Shown: positions 7,426-19,434 of the stretch, piece after piece
Position numbering within the stretch: position 1 is the stretch's first letter
How the letters are laid out: each line of letters begins with the position of its first letter
IMG/VR virus record: IMGVR_UViG_3300044957_001622
Location: 1 to 23,049 of that record
Length of the DNA stretch: 23,049 bases
Origin: a virus
Direction: 5' to 3' (one strand)
Program-made: the position numbers and the translations under genes
Notes under the pieces: generated by a model
Told to the model about the DNA's origin: nothing
The model's database searches: none
Seen by the model: the letters and a program-made list of their open reading frames with translations, nothing else

Positions 7426-8223
7426 TTAGTGTTCCTTCCGCGCAAGCGCTTTCGTCCGGCGCGCCTCATTTAGCGATTCGATCTCGCATTTAGCGGCGTC
7501 GAGGCCCGCCTTTAGTCGACGGAGGTTCGCGGCGTTTAGGTCGCCGCCCGCTCCCAGCGACCGGATGGTCGCGCCGCGCCCGGCCACCGCTTCAAGCACG
7601 GCGACGGTCCTGGCATCGCCCACGCGGCGATGGATGGCCGAGATGACGGCCAGCGCCGCGCCCGCCTCGGCCACTGAGACCAGCATGTGACCGACATCCT
7701 TGAAGCCCGCCTGCGTCGAGCCGAAGGCGCTCACCGAGACCGGCGGCCTCGCCCGGTCGAGCACGGCCCGGTAGGCGTCGCCGATCTGCTTTTCCGCGTC
7801 ACTCACCGCGCCCGCCTTGTGCAGGCTGGCCAAGCCATCGACCCGACTGGCGCGCCGCACGGTCTGGACGTCGAGCACCGGCTGGCCGTCCCGCCGTGCC
7901 AGTCCGCCCATCTCGTTGCGCCGCCATTCGCCGACATCGACGGTCTCGACCTCGAAGGCCTCGCCCCGCGCCCGCGCCCGCTCCAGCGTATCCTCGATCC
8001 CGCGCTCGACGGCCGTGCCGGCCCGGGCCGCCGCGATCTCGGCCTCCACCTCGCGGATGAGGAACACCGCGCGCTGACGATCCCGCCAGTTGCCCGCCGC
8101 CAGCGCCTCGGCCTCGGCCAGTCGCTCTCGCTGGCCGGTCGTCAGCCGCCGGCTGTTGACCACGGCCGGACCGCGCGGGGCCGTCTCAATCGTGCGCTTC
8201 CGCCGCCGCGCCGCCTTACCCAT
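7426..8223 (-). CDS. unknown protein at the end of the early operon; candidate late-gene regulator
   Basis: 265 residues, ATG start overlapping the end of the replication gene by 8 bases. The N-terminus is strongly basic (GKAARRRKR); a charged helical region follows (residues about 30-90). The C-terminal half (about 130-265) contains a helical repeat (EKQIGDAYRAVLDRARPP, later VLEAVAGRGATIRSLGAG, then a final LRRLKAGLDAAK). It reminds me of the DUF6456-type DNA-binding domain of alphaproteobacterial phages, but I am not sure. Being the last early gene, just before a terminator-like hairpin and the packaging genes, it occupies the place of Q- or RinA-type late regulators; that role is inference only. 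Confidence 0.65.
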   Translation of the reverse strand: MGKAARRRKRTIETAPRGPAVVNSRRLTTGQRERLAEAEALAAGNWRDRQRAVFLIREVEAEIAAARAGTAVERGIEDTLERARARGEAFEVETVDVGEWRRNEMGGLARRDGQPVLDVQTVRRASRVDGLASLHKAGAVSDAEKQIGDAYRAVLDRARPPVSVSAFGSTQAGFKDVGHMLVSVAEAGAALAVISAIHRRVGDARTVAVLEAVAGRGATIRSLGAGGDLNAANLRRLKAGLDAAKCEIESLNEARRTKALARKEH

Positions 8224-9169
8224 GACCGCCCCCGCTCGCGCTCGCCGCCTCGCACTCGATCGTCACGCCCAGCCCTCGCAGAGCCTTGCCTGCAAGCGAC
8301 CGCAGGCGGTCCGCCGCGAAGCCGGTGCGCGTCAGAATCGTCCGCCGCTCCCCGTCCCAGCGCGCCGGGTCGAAGTAGCTGGCCCGCTGATCCGGCCCCA
8401 TCACCGCCGCGACCGCCGCCTCGATTTCGGGCGGTCCCGACCAGATCACGCGGGCCGGCGACGGATCGGCATCCGCGTCGGCCAGCCATGCCAGGAACCG
8501 GCTCTCGGCGAGCCAGCGGTCGAGGTTCATCGCCCGCCCTCGGCCGAAGTCGGGGTCTCGGCGCACCGCGACGGCCACCGCCGTCAGCAGCTGCTCATCC
8601 GTCAGCCGAGTCCGCTCGGTCGCAGCCGCCCATGCCGCCTCTACCCGATCCGGACTGACCCGCTCCGGGGCCTTCTCGGCCCAAAGTCGCTGCGCCTTCG
8701 CGCACGCGCTCGTGGAGGGCTTCAGCCCTTGAGAGATTCCCTTCCCTATTTGGGTGACACCCGTGTCACCCCATGGGGTGACATCCGCGACATCTTGGGG
8801 TGACGCCTGTGTCACCCCAGCGCCCGGCCTTGGGGTGACACCACTGTCACCCCGCGAGGCCCGCTCGGCGGCGATCCGACGCTTCGTATTCGCGTGGCCG
8901 ACGTCCAGTTGCAGCGTCCAGACGGGCACGATCTTGCCCTGATGCTTGTGCGTCCGCCCGGCCGACTTGATCAGCCCGGCACCCTGCAACGCGCGCATGC
9001 CGCGCTGGATGGTCCGGTCGCTGACCTGCATCTCGAAAGCCAGCAGCGGGATCAGCGCCCACGCCTCGCCCTCGGCGTCGGCATAGGACGCCAGATGCAC
9101 CAGCACCTGCTTGGCGTTGCGGTCCGGACAGTCCTGAGCCTTCGCCCAGGTCACGGCGATGTCGCTCAT
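8216..9169 (-). CDS. winged-helix phage replication initiator (lambda O-like organisation)
   Basis: 317 residues. Residues about 15-75 form a helix-turn-helix/winged-helix domain of the replication-initiator type (NAKQVLVHLASYADAEG, then SDRTIQRGMRALQGAGLI and a short wing). Residues about 100-145 are a linker with the repeated word GVT (GDSGVTP, GAGVTQ, ADVTP, DTGVTQ). The C-terminal half is charged and helical, possibly for partner recruitment. The linker is encoded by a cluster of palindromic repeats (separate entry), exactly the arrangement of lambda O, where origin iterons lie inside the initiator gene. Start ATG overlaps the upstream stop (ATGA). No helicase or loader gene is visible here, so host proteins may complete the replisome. 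Confidence 0.78.
   Translation of the reverse strand: MSDIAVTWAKAQDCPDRNAKQVLVHLASYADAEGEAWALIPLLAFEMQVSDRTIQRGMRALQGAGLIKSAGRTHKHQGKIVPVWTLQLDVGHANTKRRIAAERASRGDSGVTPRPGAGVTQASPQDVADVTPWGDTGVTQIGKGISQGLKPSTSACAKAQRLWAEKAPERVSPDRVEAAWAAATERTRLTDEQLLTAVAVAVRRDPDFGRGRAMNLDRWLAESRFLAWLADADADPSPARVIWSGPPEIEAAVAAVMGPDQRASYFDPARWDGERRTILTRTGFAADRLRSLAGKALRGLGVTIECEAASASGGGHG
8750..8854. repeat. iteron-like palindrome cluster inside the initiator gene; candidate replication origin
   Basis: Seven copies of a 10-base half-site with consensus TGGGGTGACA. Three inverted pairs each have a 4-base spacer: 8750-8759/8764-8773 (spacer CCCG), 8796-8805/8810-8819 (CCTG) and 8831-8840/8845-8854 (CCAC). An extra half-site at 8774-8783 abuts the first pair, making a perfect 20-bp palindrome at 8764-8783. 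Half-sites differ by at most one base. An AT-richer stretch and a GATTC (GANTC class) lie just beside the cluster at 8735-8750. The regular spacing is far beyond what the encoded peptide would require. Confidence 0.75.
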
Positions 9170-15464: not shown

Positions 15465-15598
15465 TGCGCCCGGCTCTCCCTGACTTCCGCCCCATCGTCG
15501 AATGGCTCGACGCCCGCCCACGGCGGACCGGTCGCGCCACGACGATCATCCTGCTCGCCATGCTCGCCGCTCTCGCGGTCGCGGCGGCCCTGAACTGA
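15464..15598 (+). CDS. small membrane protein, second gene of the plus-strand operon
   Basis: 44 residues, start overlapping the previous stop (TGATG). The N-terminal half is polar with RPALPDFRPIVEWLDARPRR, then one transmembrane helix (TIILLAMLAALAVAAAL) runs to the end. Its basic residues before the helix predict an N-in orientation. It ends 11 bases before the ParB-like start. No family recognised. It could be a partner of the 32-residue protein upstream. Confidence 0.55.
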   Translation: MRPALPDFRPIVEWLDARPRRTGRATTIILLAMLAALAVAAALN

Positions 15599-15609
15599 TC
15601 GGAGACCGC

Positions 15610-17547
15610 ATGTCCCAGCTTTCCATCCTCGCCGTCCAGAACGCGCCGCTGCTGCGGGCGATCAAGACCAACCCGCTCGCACAGAAGGCGGACCTCGCCA
15701 CCGCGACCGGCAAGGACCGCTCGAACCTTAATCGCAGCATCGCCGCACTCGTCGAGGCCGGTCTGGTGGTGGAGTCGGACAGCGGCTCCCGCAACCTCAC
15801 CGATGACGGCGAGGCCCAGCTGGCGGCCGTCGACCGGGCTGAAGGCAAACCCGGTTTGCCGGGCGGCGACCGCTGGCCGCAACAGGTCGGCGACATTCGC
15901 CTGCTGAACCACGCGCAAATCTTCCCTGACCACGCCAACGCGCGAGTCGACTGGGACAGCGACGAGGCCCGCGAGGAACTGGACGCTCTGCGCGCCGACA
16001 TCGTCCAGTATGGACTGCTGCAGAACCTCGTCGTCCGGGCAGACGACTTTGGCGACACCCTGAAGGTCCTGAACGACGCCGGCGAGACCATGCCGGTCTT
16101 CACCCTAGTCGGTGGCGAGCGTCGCTGGCGCGCCATCGGGCTGGCGATTGCCGAAGACGACTGGCCGCGCGACCGCCCCATCCCGTGCCGCGTGGTCGAG
16201 CTCGACACGCTAGGGCAGCGGCTCGCCGCCCTGTCGGAAAACCTTCAGCGTCGGAACCTGAACCCGCTGGAGAAGGCGAAGGCCTTTGACGGCTTGGCCA
16301 AGGCCTTCGCCGAGCAGGGCATCGAGGACGACAAGATCAACCGTGAGATCGCGGACCGCGTCGGCGTCACGATCGAGCACGTCCAGCAACATCGCAGCTT
16401 CCTCAAGCTCGACGAGGCGGACCAACAGCGCCTGACCCTGCCGAAGGATGACCCGCGCCGCATGTCGGTCCGCGAGGCCCGCCAGAAAGCCTCGAACAAG
16501 GAGGCCAGCAAGCCGCTCGATCTGACGCCGGCCGAACGGCTCCTGTTCGCCGAGCTGACGCACCGCGCGCGGTCGATCGCCAGCTACAGCTTCAATGATT
16601 TCGAGGTCGGCCCGGACGCCGCCTATGACCCGACGCTCGCTCTGCTGATCGAGAAGACCATCGTCAGCGACGTCCATCGCGTCGGCTACGGCGAGCTGAC
16701 CGGCCGCTTCGCCCTGCGCCTGCGTTGGGACGGTCACCCGGAGCGCTACTTCGCGTGGTTCGACAAGGGCAAGGGCAAGGCCCTCGACGTCGGCCTCGAA
16801 GAGGAACAGGCCGCGTCCGGCCAGACCCGCGCCGAGGGCGCGACCTACGTCACCCCGTGGCTAACCGGCCCGTTCGAGCTCGACGAACAGGGCAAGGGCA
16901 TGGTCGCCGAGAAGGATGCCCGGGATGCCGAGAACGCCGAACGCGCGCGCCTGTCGCAGGAAGAGCGCGAGGCGCTGGCCAAGAAGTACGCCGACGCCCG
17001 CCAGAAGCACCTGCAGCTGCTGAACGCGGCGGCCGACGCGCCACCGGCCGAGGTCGGCGAGGCGACGATCGAGGCGGCCGAGGTGATCGACGCGCCCCTG
17101 CCGTGGCGTCTGAATCCGGACGGTATGGTCGTCGCCGCCAACGGCAAGGCCGTCCAACGCTTCGGCAACTACTACGGCTCGCCTGGCGACAACGACATGA
17201 CCGTCGCGCAGATCGTCGTGGTCGCGGTCAACTCGGCGGCCGGCCTTCCGACCCCGCCCGTCGAATTCAAGGGCCAGGCGGTCGAGGGCATGGACGAGGA
17301 AGAGTTCCTCGACGTCATGGCGCAGAACCTCGAGAGCCGCGCCGAGGCCGACGATGAAGCGGAGTTCGAGGTCTATCAGGGCCAGGCGTCCGAGATCCTC
17401 GCCACGTTCCTCGAGGACAATGGCGTCGCCTACGGCGAGGACGGCTTCGACTGGACCGACGAGGGCGCCGTCGCCCTGATCGACGGCCACATGTCCGACG
17501 CCGGCGGGGAACCCGCCCAAGGCGAAGCCGACAGGGCCGCCGCCTGA
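15610..17547 (+). CDS. ParB-like protein with N-terminal winged helix and long C-terminal extension
   Basis: 645 residues. GGAG lies 5 bases before the ATG; the frame is open upstream but without signals. Residues about 12-75 form a MarR-like winged helix (KADLATATGKDRSNLNRSIA, then LVEAGLVVESDSGSRNL). The ParB N-terminal domain follows (about 95-225): ALRADIVQYGLLQNLVV, the CTP-site motif GGERRWRA (about 168-175) and ENLQRRNLNPLEKAKA (about 210-225). The HTH is about 240-265 (REIADRVGVTIEHVQQHRSF). Residues from about 330 are an unassigned extension with a charged helix (ERARLSQEEREALAKKYADA). No ParA is present here, so it may act in transcription, silencing or origin handling rather than in standard partition. 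Confidence 0.88.
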   Translation: MSQLSILAVQNAPLLRAIKTNPLAQKADLATATGKDRSNLNRSIAALVEAGLVVESDSGSRNLTDDGEAQLAAVDRAEGKPGLPGGDRWPQQVGDIRLLNHAQIFPDHANARVDWDSDEAREELDALRADIVQYGLLQNLVVRADDFGDTLKVLNDAGETMPVFTLVGGERRWRAIGLAIAEDDWPRDRPIPCRVVELDTLGQRLAALSENLQRRNLNPLEKAKAFDGLAKAFAEQGIEDDKINREIADRVGVTIEHVQQHRSFLKLDEADQQRLTLPKDDPRRMSVREARQKASNKEASKPLDLTPAERLLFAELTHRARSIASYSFNDFEVGPDAAYDPTLALLIEKTIVSDVHRVGYGELTGRFALRLRWDGHPERYFAWFDKGKGKALDVGLEEEQAASGQTRAEGATYVTPWLTGPFELDEQGKGMVAEKDARDAENAERARLSQEEREALAKKYADARQKHLQLLNAAADAPPAEVGEATIEAAEVIDAPLPWRLNPDGMVVAANGKAVQRFGNYYGSPGDNDMTVAQIVVVAVNSAAGLPTPPVEFKGQAVEGMDEEEFLDVMAQNLESRAEADDEAEFEVYQGQASEILATFLEDNGVAYGEDGFDWTDEGAVALIDGHMSDAGGEPAQGEADRAAA

Positions 17548-17966: not shown

Positions 17967-18307
17967 TGGCCGTTATCCCCTCGGCCCTCGATCTGACAGA
18001 CGCTGGCAACGTCGTGCAGGCCCGCCATGAGCTGCATCAGGCGATGGACTTCGGCGGGCAGGACAAGCGCGCCGCTTGGGCGGAAAAGTGGGGCGAAGCC
18101 GCCCTGGCCGCTGGCGAGAAGGCCTCGAACGAAGCGGGAGAATGGGACGGCTTCTCGGCCCCGGAGTCGCTCGAAGCCGCCGACAACCTCACCGACCAGC
18201 TGATTGCCGAGCTGGCGAAGGACAACCCCAACATCGAGAACTGCCGACGCCTCGCGAAGCGCGTCAGCGGCAAGCTCGACGACATGCTTGAGGCGATCGA
18301 GGAATGA
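17966..18307 (+). CDS. small acidic helical phage protein upstream of the clamp gene
   Basis: 113 residues; start overlaps the previous stop (TGATG) and the end overlaps the clamp start (ATGA). The sequence is helical and acidic (NVVQARHELHQAMDFG, then RAAWAEKWGEAALAAGEK, then a C-terminal ENCRRLAKRVSGKLDDMLEA). Translation appears coupled to the sliding clamp, so the two may be made in proportion. No known motif is visible, and I see no clear clamp-binding peptide. Confidence 0.62.
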   Translation: MAVIPSALDLTDAGNVVQARHELHQAMDFGGQDKRAAWAEKWGEAALAAGEKASNEAGEWDGFSAPESLEAADNLTDQLIAELAKDNPNIENCRRLAKRVSGKLDDMLEAIEE

Positions 18308-19434
18308 TCATCATCGTTGAACAGGCGGTTCTCGCCCGCGTCACCGCGCGCATCGCCAGCGTGGCGACAAAGCGCGGCACTATCCCCATCCTGCACAACG
18401 TCCTGATCGACGCCCGCGACGGCGCGGTCTGGATGACGGCCACCGACCTCGACATGGAAATTCGCGAACGGTTCGACGCAACGGTCGATCGCGCAGGGCA
18501 GATCACGGTCAGCGCCACGGCCTTGGCCGAGATCGCGCGCAACGCTCCGGCCGGCGCCGAGGTGGTCATCCAGTGGGAAGACGGCGCCGACCCCCGGGCG
18601 CTGATCAAGTTCGGCCGGTCCAAGTATCGCCTGCCGGTCCTGCCGGCCGGCGACTTCCCTATTCGGGCCGACCTGACCTCGGCGAGCGAGATGACTCTGT
18701 CGGCCGCCGAGCTGCTGACCCTCCTCGATCACGTCCACTTCGCTCAGTCGTCGGAAGAGACCCGCTACTACCTGAACGGAACCTACTTCCACACGATCGC
18801 CGATGAGGGTCAGGCAGTGTTTCGGGTCGTCGCGACGGACGGCCATCGCCTCTGCATCGATCAGCGCCCGGTCCCGGCCGCGACGTCCATCCCGGGCGTC
18901 ATCGTGCCGCGCGCCGCGATTGGAGAGTTTCGGCGGGTCCTGTCGGGTGCGAAGTCCGACGTGCAGCTGAAGGTCAATCAGACCGGCGTCTCCCTCGAGA
19001 TCGATGACACCTACCTGATCACCAAGACGGTTGACGGCTCCTACCCGGATTACGAGCGGGTCCGGCCGAGGGAGTGGGACCGCGAGATCGTTATCGACCG
19101 CGCTGTGCTGCATGCCGCCGTCAAACGCGTGTCTCTCATCAGTGCCGAAAAGGCCCGGTCGGTGAAGCTGTCGATCGAGGAAGAGGTGCTCACGCTCACG
19201 GTCCGGAACATGGAGACCGGAATGGCGGATGAGCAGATCGAGGTGAACGGCGAAGGCCCCCACTTCGAGACCGGCTTCAACGCCAAGTATCTGCTGGACG
19301 TCCTCGAGCAGACCGACGCCGACCAGATGCTGTTTCGCGTCAGCGACGGCGGCTCGCCGGCGCGCCTCGACCCGCATCCCGGGACAAAGGGCGCGGACGC
19401 GATCGTTAACGTCATCATGCCGCTGAGGGTGTGA
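18304..19434 (+). CDS. dnaN: DNA polymerase III beta subunit (sliding clamp), phage-encoded
   Basis: 376 residues, the full length of bacterial DnaN. Conserved features: AVLARVTARIASVATKRGTI, then PILHNVLIDA near the N-terminus; VWMTATDLDMEIRER; the FPIRADL region (about 118-124); YYLNGTYFH; FRVVATDGHRLCI; DGSYPDYERVRP; and the C-terminal IVNVIMPLRV, which matches the MPMRL-type end that binds polymerase partners. All three clamp domains appear intact. The protein forms the ring that tethers polymerase to DNA. A phage copy may take over or adjust the host replisome. It starts within the previous stop (ATGA) and is followed by an unknown gene (TGATG). Confidence 0.93.
   Translation: MIIIVEQAVLARVTARIASVATKRGTIPILHNVLIDARDGAVWMTATDLDMEIRERFDATVDRAGQITVSATALAEIARNAPAGAEVVIQWEDGADPRALIKFGRSKYRLPVLPAGDFPIRADLTSASEMTLSAAELLTLLDHVHFAQSSEETRYYLNGTYFHTIADEGQAVFRVVATDGHRLCIDQRPVPAATSIPGVIVPRAAIGEFRRVLSGAKSDVQLKVNQTGVSLEIDDTYLITKTVDGSYPDYERVRPREWDREIVIDRAVLHAAVKRVSLISAEKARSVKLSIEEEVLTLTVRNMETGMADEQIEVNGEGPHFETGFNAKYLLDVLEQTDADQMLFRVSDGGSPARLDPHPGTKGADAIVNVIMPLRV

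Follow-up and report, generated by a model that had tools for sequence, protein, structure and literature searches.

A probable lambda-type replication origin inside the winged-helix initiator gene of a viral DNA fragment

The iterons of phage lambda are 19-base-pair (bp) inverted repeats that bind O dimers (PMC5043065, PMC7466680), and they adjoin a 40-bp A+T-rich region (PMC5043065). Here we analysed positions 1 to 23,049 of the virus record IMGVR_UViG_3300044957_001622 (hereafter the window, 23,049 nucleotides in all), where an array of inverted repeats at 8750-8854 lies within the gene of a winged-helix protein. As judged from sequence comparison, this array very probably represents the iterons of a lambda-type phage replication origin located inside its own initiator gene. 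Such a lambda-like origin was the core of a prediction made earlier from the letters of the window alone (hereafter the original prediction), and comparison now strongly supports it; homologues keep a cluster at this position.

Intragenic iterons in described systems and their probable counterparts in the window

Repeats are found just 3' of the winged helix in the O genes of lambda, P22, ES18, HK97, phi80, D3, phiEt88, SEN22, phiES15, R26, RCIP0034 and mEpX1, with each phage group having its own half-site (TCCCTC in lambda, CGGTAAA in P22, CATTAGC in HK97 and CGGGAAG in phi80). At the repeat position, the records of P22 and ES18 carry a rep_origin annotation and that of phi80 lists gp15 sites. 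In ES18, a lambda-like N-terminus and lambda-like iterons are joined to a SEN22-like C-terminus, and in R26 another N-terminus with its iterons is joined to a lambda-like C-terminus; thus, the winged helix and the iterons move as a pair. For Gordonia phages, too, mosaic replication initiators have been described in which winged helices were exchanged (PMC10684548).

Like gene O of lambda, gene 18 of P22, gene 15 of phi80 and gene 59 of ES18, the window gene holds inverted-repeat iterons just 3' of its winged-helix codons, and as in lambda an AT-rich stretch of about 40 bp lies beside them. The original prediction had set the palindromes against simple direct repeats in lambda; since the lambda iterons are inverted repeats too (PMC5043065, PMC7466680), palindromy is a likeness and not a difference. 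The window initiator nevertheless departs from the lambda group in matching HTH_36 rather than Phage_rep_O, in a different C-terminal part, in its half-site GGGGTGACA with a 4-bp spacer, and in having no recognisable P, DnaC or DnaB gene next to it. Analogously, iteron plasmids (RK2, P1, R6K) have initiator-binding repeats beside an AT-rich stretch (PMC5043065), yet the iterons of such replicons are direct repeats outside the rep gene that bind monomers, whereas the window units are inverted repeats inside the gene.

Closer to the window in half-site are the O protein of Salmonella phage SEN22 type (locus L330) and prophage relatives such as L050, with GGTGACA palindromes just 3' of the winged helix. 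They differ in a winged helix of the lambda-O family, with KVNK where HTH_36 members have RxxQR, and are possibly a separate, independent solution for a similar site. The HTH protein of Bifidobacterium phage PMBT6 (L040/L007) shares the winged-helix family, the GGGGTGACA half-site, the 4-bp spacer and a period of roughly 22 bp. The winged-helix family is also common to HTH_36 initiators of Arthrobacter, Methylobacterium and Rhodanobacter phages or prophages, and GGGGTGA-type repeats are present in the Arthrobacter phages Abidatro and Andrew, in the latter at 22-bp intervals. The C-terminal parts of PMBT6 and these other HTH_36 initiators differ from that of the window protein. The records seen call them no more than HTH domain or replication initiation protein and mark no origin, and no description of intragenic iterons in HTH_36 genes was found in the literature searched, which mostly left subscription journals uncovered.

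The features of the window locus are the following, coordinates being those of the window.
8216-9169, minus strand: predicted replication initiator gene, 317 residues, with an N-terminal winged helix (HTH_36), a disordered linker and a helical C-terminal part (PF13730, PHROGs, AlphaFold model)
8906-9169, minus strand: codons of the winged-helix DNA-binding domain, residues 1-88 (predicted local distance difference test, pLDDT, about 87-96; structural neighbours are winged-helix DNA-binding proteins)
8981-9019, minus strand: codons of the recognition helix in the model, residues 51-63 with Arg52, Gln55 and Arg56 (the helix columns associate most with half-site sequence)
8831-8854: iteron closest to the winged-helix codons, TGGGGTGACA-CCAC-TGTCACCCCG
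8796-8819: second iteron, TGGGGTGACG-CCTG-TGTCACCCCA
8774-8797: third iteron, with a degenerate right arm, TGGGGTGACA-TCCG-CGACATCTTG
8750-8773: fourth iteron, beside the AT-rich flank, TTGGGTGACA-CCCG-TGTCACCCCA
8720-8851, minus strand: codons of the predicted disordered linker holding the iterons, residues 107-150 (pLDDT below 50, near 40)
about 8710-8749: candidate DNA-unwinding stretch, adjoining the iterons on their 3' side as the gene reads (G+C fraction, GC, 0.55 versus 0.725 on the 5' side)
8252-8431, minus strand: C-terminal subdomain, residues 247-306, predicted as helix-helix-strand-strand-helix-strand

Seven half-sites TGGGGTGACA, allowing at most one mismatch, occur in the whole window and every one falls within 8750-8854 (8750+, 8764-, 8774+, 8796+, 8810-, 8831+ and 8845-); shuffles of the window give 0.78 expected and a maximum of three in 100. 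Three pairs follow TGGGGTGACA-N4-TGTCACCCCA with one mismatch each (8750-8773, 8796-8819 and 8831-8854), for which shuffles expect 0.00. The cluster originally described, with seven half-sites, three inverted pairs and 4-base spacers, is thus confirmed. The seventh half-site, at 8774-8783, indeed abuts the first pair, but rather than an extra half-site it is best seen as part of a fourth 24-bp unit whose right arm is degenerate, so that units start at 8750, 8774, 8796 and 8831, spaced by 24, 22 and 35 bp. All lie inside the minus-strand open reading frame, about 315 bp into the gene.

The encoded protein matches PF13730 (HTH_36) at 33.1 bits (cut-off 25) as well as PHROGs 1032, 391, 270, 4617 and 8540, 'replication initiation (O-like)', with 5.6e-12 for PHROG 1032 and 2e-9 for PHROG 391. 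An AlphaFold model was built from an alignment with 14 relatives, across which R52, Q55 and R56 are invariant; its C-terminal part is helical and confident. Congruent with the placement first proposed, the repeats fall in the coding sequence of the linker, for which disorder is predicted. This linker is however not simply a repeated GVT, as had been stated, because the half-site is read in three frames, giving GD, VT and SP. For a GATTC site pointed out beside the cluster, we found no reason to attach meaning.

Selection on the repeats and their relation to the recognition helix

To look for the palindrome independently of the protein, 2.9 million viral contigs (a redundant collection) were scanned for GGGGTGACA-N4-TGTCACCCC. 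Of the 36 stretches recovered, 30 lie in or at an HTH_36-family winged-helix gene, with at least four clustered half-sites. The shorter GGTGACA-N4-TGTCACC falls in HTH_36 or lambda-O-type genes in 55 of 111 stretches among the matches listed, as does the form with a 6-bp spacer in 52 of 119, again among the matches listed; the latter had been planned as a control and turned out to be a second member of the family. The actual control, the reversed palindrome ACAGTGG-N4-CCACTGT, is found in such genes in none of 45 stretches. In bacterial genomes the long palindrome occurs in 25 contigs; 11 have at least four half-sites, and 9 of these 11 have them in a winged-helix gene, these nine coming from Kitasatospora, Methylobacterium, Demequina, Propionibacteriaceae, Microbacterium, Rhodanobacter and Sphingomonadales records. 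The repeat, which had appeared unfamiliar, is not unique to this phage, but is also found in phages and prophages of Alphaproteobacteria, Gammaproteobacteria and Actinobacteria; literature searches with the half-site returned unrelated primer matches only. With the window protein alone as query, the viral contigs gave no matches.

Some loci carry the palindrome in another arrangement. In L021, L030, L038 and L089 (contig IMGVR_UViG_3300043499_000086, 52.8 kb), many GGTGACA palindromes are dispersed rather than clustered in a winged-helix gene, with 27 half-sites within 6.3 kb in L021, and eight half-sites cluster at L258:6780-7020, outside any recognised winged-helix gene.

Next, 75 representative genes with less than 70% identity in the winged helix were exploited to separate DNA from peptide. 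The half-site core is present in all tolerated frames and on both strands, and 72 of the genes use at least two strand/frame combinations. Compared with shuffles of synonymous codons within each gene, 391 exact cores stand against 53.9 expected, a sevenfold excess. Most of these genes had been recovered by means of the pattern itself, which builds about two sites per gene into the sample, yet 391 minus 150 is still more than four times the 54 expected. The window gene itself has 6 exact cores versus 0.46 expected, a number reached in 0 of 2000 synonymous shuffles. Spacers of inverted pairs are 4, 3 or 6 bp and direct neighbours are mostly 21-23 bp apart, and in the L005/L006 group the array extends beyond the stop codon. 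As shown by this comparison, the half-sites are selected as DNA, and the use of several frames, the excess over the peptide-preserving null and the arrays past the stop codon all agree with the linker peptide being a by-product, as first suggested.

In order to avoid the bias of the pattern, relatives were also chosen by protein family: about 1,370 genomes were searched with PHROG 1032, and a few more came from using the window protein as query. A cluster was counted where the intragenic repeat 3' of the winged helix scored at least 1.5 units above the highest of eight codon shuffles. By this measure, 48 of 66 usable non-redundant protein-selected genes carry their own intragenic repeat cluster, and those without may be non-initiators or truncated genes. 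The half-sites vary widely (TGGTGAAC, CCCCGCAG, CCGGAAGC, GGGTCGGA, AACCCGGC and others). Homologues devoid of repeats had been named as the observation that would speak against an origin; what was found instead is that homologues keep a cluster at this position, with a peptide and even a half-site that change.

Well over a hundred relatives form the basis for asking what the half-site varies with. In 46 of the protein-selected genes, half-site similarity correlates with recognition-helix similarity (Mantel r=0.244, partial 0.239, 0 of 5000 permutations, p<2e-4; the partial test removes sequence relatedness only in part), while the rest of the winged helix, with the helix accounted for, gives -0.005 (p=0.52). 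The columns that best separate like from unlike half-sites, 37, 36, 33 and 31, are all in the recognition helix. Removal of genes from five pattern-reached genomes (n=41) leaves r=0.210 and a partial value of 0.200, again with 0 of 5000 permutations, and the best 13-column windows then start at columns 27-30. Arginine at both columns 33 and 37, equivalent to Arg52 and Arg56, is present in 80 of 80 GGTGACA-type genes versus 4 of 40 with other repeats, the profile that finds these genes having been seeded from pattern hits. In the protein-selected set the corresponding numbers are 7 of 7 and 4 of 39, with four of the seven from pattern-derived genomes. L170, outside the reach of the profile, has a lysine at column 37, and the lambda-O-type SEN22 combines GGTGACA sites with a different recognition helix. 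Comparison of these genes shows a half-site that tracks the recognition helix and not the rest of the domain.

At L439:1435-2370, the C-terminal 60 residues are shared with the window initiator (44% identity), next to another winged helix and linker repeats of the AAGGTGTCACC type. By its sequence it represents a natural domain exchange; it provides no clean swap test because the AAGGTGTCACC-type repeats are too near the window core.

The AT-rich stretch and GAACC boxes

An AT-richer flank was part of the original prediction; the flank is present, and can now be placed on the 3' side of the array as the gene reads (about 8710-8749). Nowhere else in the gene does GC over 40 bp fall as low as in the windows that begin at 8720, 8721 and 8729 (0.50). 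In the GGTGACA-type genes (73 representatives), GC is 0.438 over the 40 bp that adjoin the array on its 3' side, compared with 0.548 5' of the array and 0.611 farther in the 3' direction (Wilcoxon 1e-8 and 1e-12), and the dip is present in 93% and confined to 0-40 bp. The 46 protein-selected genes, most with other half-sites, behave similarly (0.482, 0.577 and 0.640, with a dip in 91%).

In many relatives the AT-rich stretch contains GAACC boxes, in more than one frame. In the protein-selected set, 71 boxes are found versus 34.9 expected (maximum 46 in 100 synonymous shuffles), and 35 of 40 neighbour pairs are 10-12 bp apart, the helical pitch; in the GGTGACA class, 56 are found versus 30.9 expected (maximum 42). 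The boxes are common to initiators with unrelated iterons, and constitute a possible second origin element. Literature searches with the box returned unrelated primer matches only. Loci with boxes at most 70 bp 3' of the iterons include L375, L391, L397, L418, L431 and L434 among others, and also L040, L324 and L331. The group of the window itself (L025, L091, L101, L437) has no GAACC boxes, with AAATAGGGAAGG instead.

Taken together, a wider picture is conceivable, if still somewhat short of probable, in which origins in winged-helix initiator genes form one broad superfamily across Proteobacteria, Actinobacteria and phage collections. Their iterons would follow a recognition-helix code (in HTH_36, Arg-x3-Arg with GGTGACA), and their AT stretch would carry shared GAACC boxes 10-12 bp apart, independent of iteron type, that a common factor reads during opening, as DnaA reads repeats in chromosomal origins. 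The newer points here are the helix/iteron code and, within the AT-rich stretch, GAACC boxes that recur at helical pitch. The former offers a testable protein-DNA code for initiators, and the common boxes make the question of what guides strand opening directly testable.

Proposed mechanism, alternatives and neighbouring genes

In the likeliest reading, the window origin would work like the lambda ori, with an initiator outside the Phage_rep_O family. Initiator dimers would bind each 24-bp palindrome via the winged helix, whose recognition helix would read the GGTGACA half-site through Arg52, Gln55 and Arg56. With all four units bound, the DNA may be wrapped or bent and opened in the AT-rich stretch that immediately follows the array on its 3' side (about 8710-8759), after which the C-terminal part would bring in the host replicative helicase. 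As the sites lie inside the gene, beside the domain that reads them, initiator and origin would move as one unit in phage module swaps. Many phage genes annotated merely as 'helix-turn-helix protein' may on these grounds harbour origins with a position predictable from sequence, which bears on predicting where phage and prophage replication starts, on origin compatibility and on module swaps that keep initiator and sites together.

Several observations weigh against an origin of this kind. The initiator has no match to the Pfam lambda O family, HTH_36 being its sole Pfam match at E values up to 0.1, and no helicase or loader is recognisable beside it in the window, the adjoining gene (7426-8223) being without family or fold match. 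Moreover, the AT-rich dip is modest, 0.50-0.55 in a gene with a GC of 0.70, the stretch lacks the GAACC boxes of most relatives, and the record is a 23-kb fragment without a host.

Among the alternatives, the one that survives best, and which we nevertheless regard as improbable, is that the repeats serve the protein as an intragenic binding site for transcriptional autoregulation or as a transcription roadblock. Winged helices are indeed common in repressors, the fold search returns many regulators, and covariation shows recognition, not replication. An origin is however the better fit to the O-like PHROG matches, to the position shared with the sites in lambda, P22, ES18 and phi80, to the AT-rich dip on one side of the array and to the helicase or loader genes that adjoin the initiator in relatives; the sites, about 315 bp into the gene, are also away from its start. 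Far less credible is a role as partition or centromere sites, with the ParB-like protein of 15502-17547 as their partner. The record does encode such a protein, and clustered palindromes are reminiscent of parS, but the repeats vary in sequence with the winged helix encoded by their own gene, and across many phages and phyla they cluster within that winged-helix gene. Selection on the Thr/Pro-rich linker peptide, with the DNA repeat as by-product, is equally hard to credit and already contradicted by the frame and synonymous-shuffle tests described above as well as by the arrays running past the stop codon, and other half-sites encode other peptides in relatives, even if linker peptides are alike (GVTP, GDTxVTP, VSP) and predicted to be disordered.

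Returning to the probable origin, helicase recruitment can be approached via the C-terminal subdomain. Compared with chromosomal DnaA domain I, its profile score is 19.0, versus at most 13.2 in 60 column-shuffled controls, at an HH probability of 8%, and its helices and strands follow the order known for that domain. A likeness to this helicase-binding domain is suggestive only, and we hypothesise that the subdomain recruits the host helicase. The absence of DnaA domain I from the Foldseek and VIA-align lists is uninformative, as their rows span the winged helix only. In the relatives L019 and L355/L362, the initiator C-terminus is a clear DnaA domain I, above the Pfam cut-off. The gene next to the initiator in other relatives encodes a DnaB-like helicase (L194, L210), a DnaC-like loader (L260, L222) or a P-like loader (L156, L240).

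The loci of phage-type winged-helix initiators ending in DnaA domain I are L019:817-1914, L355:5803-6909 (the same gene as L362), L141:4372-5514 and L415:961-2109, the latter two matched by a home-made profile only. The window gene at 7426-8223 encodes a 265-residue protein of no known family, which directly follows the initiator in L025, L034, L091 and L101 too. A helicase-loader role was considered for it, given its conservation beside the initiator in four relatives, and set aside; its model is of moderate confidence, with no fold match. Elsewhere in the window, the ParB-like protein of 15502-17547 has an extra N-terminal winged helix, and 18304-19434 encodes a full DNA polymerase III beta clamp (TIGR00663, 2.8e-69).
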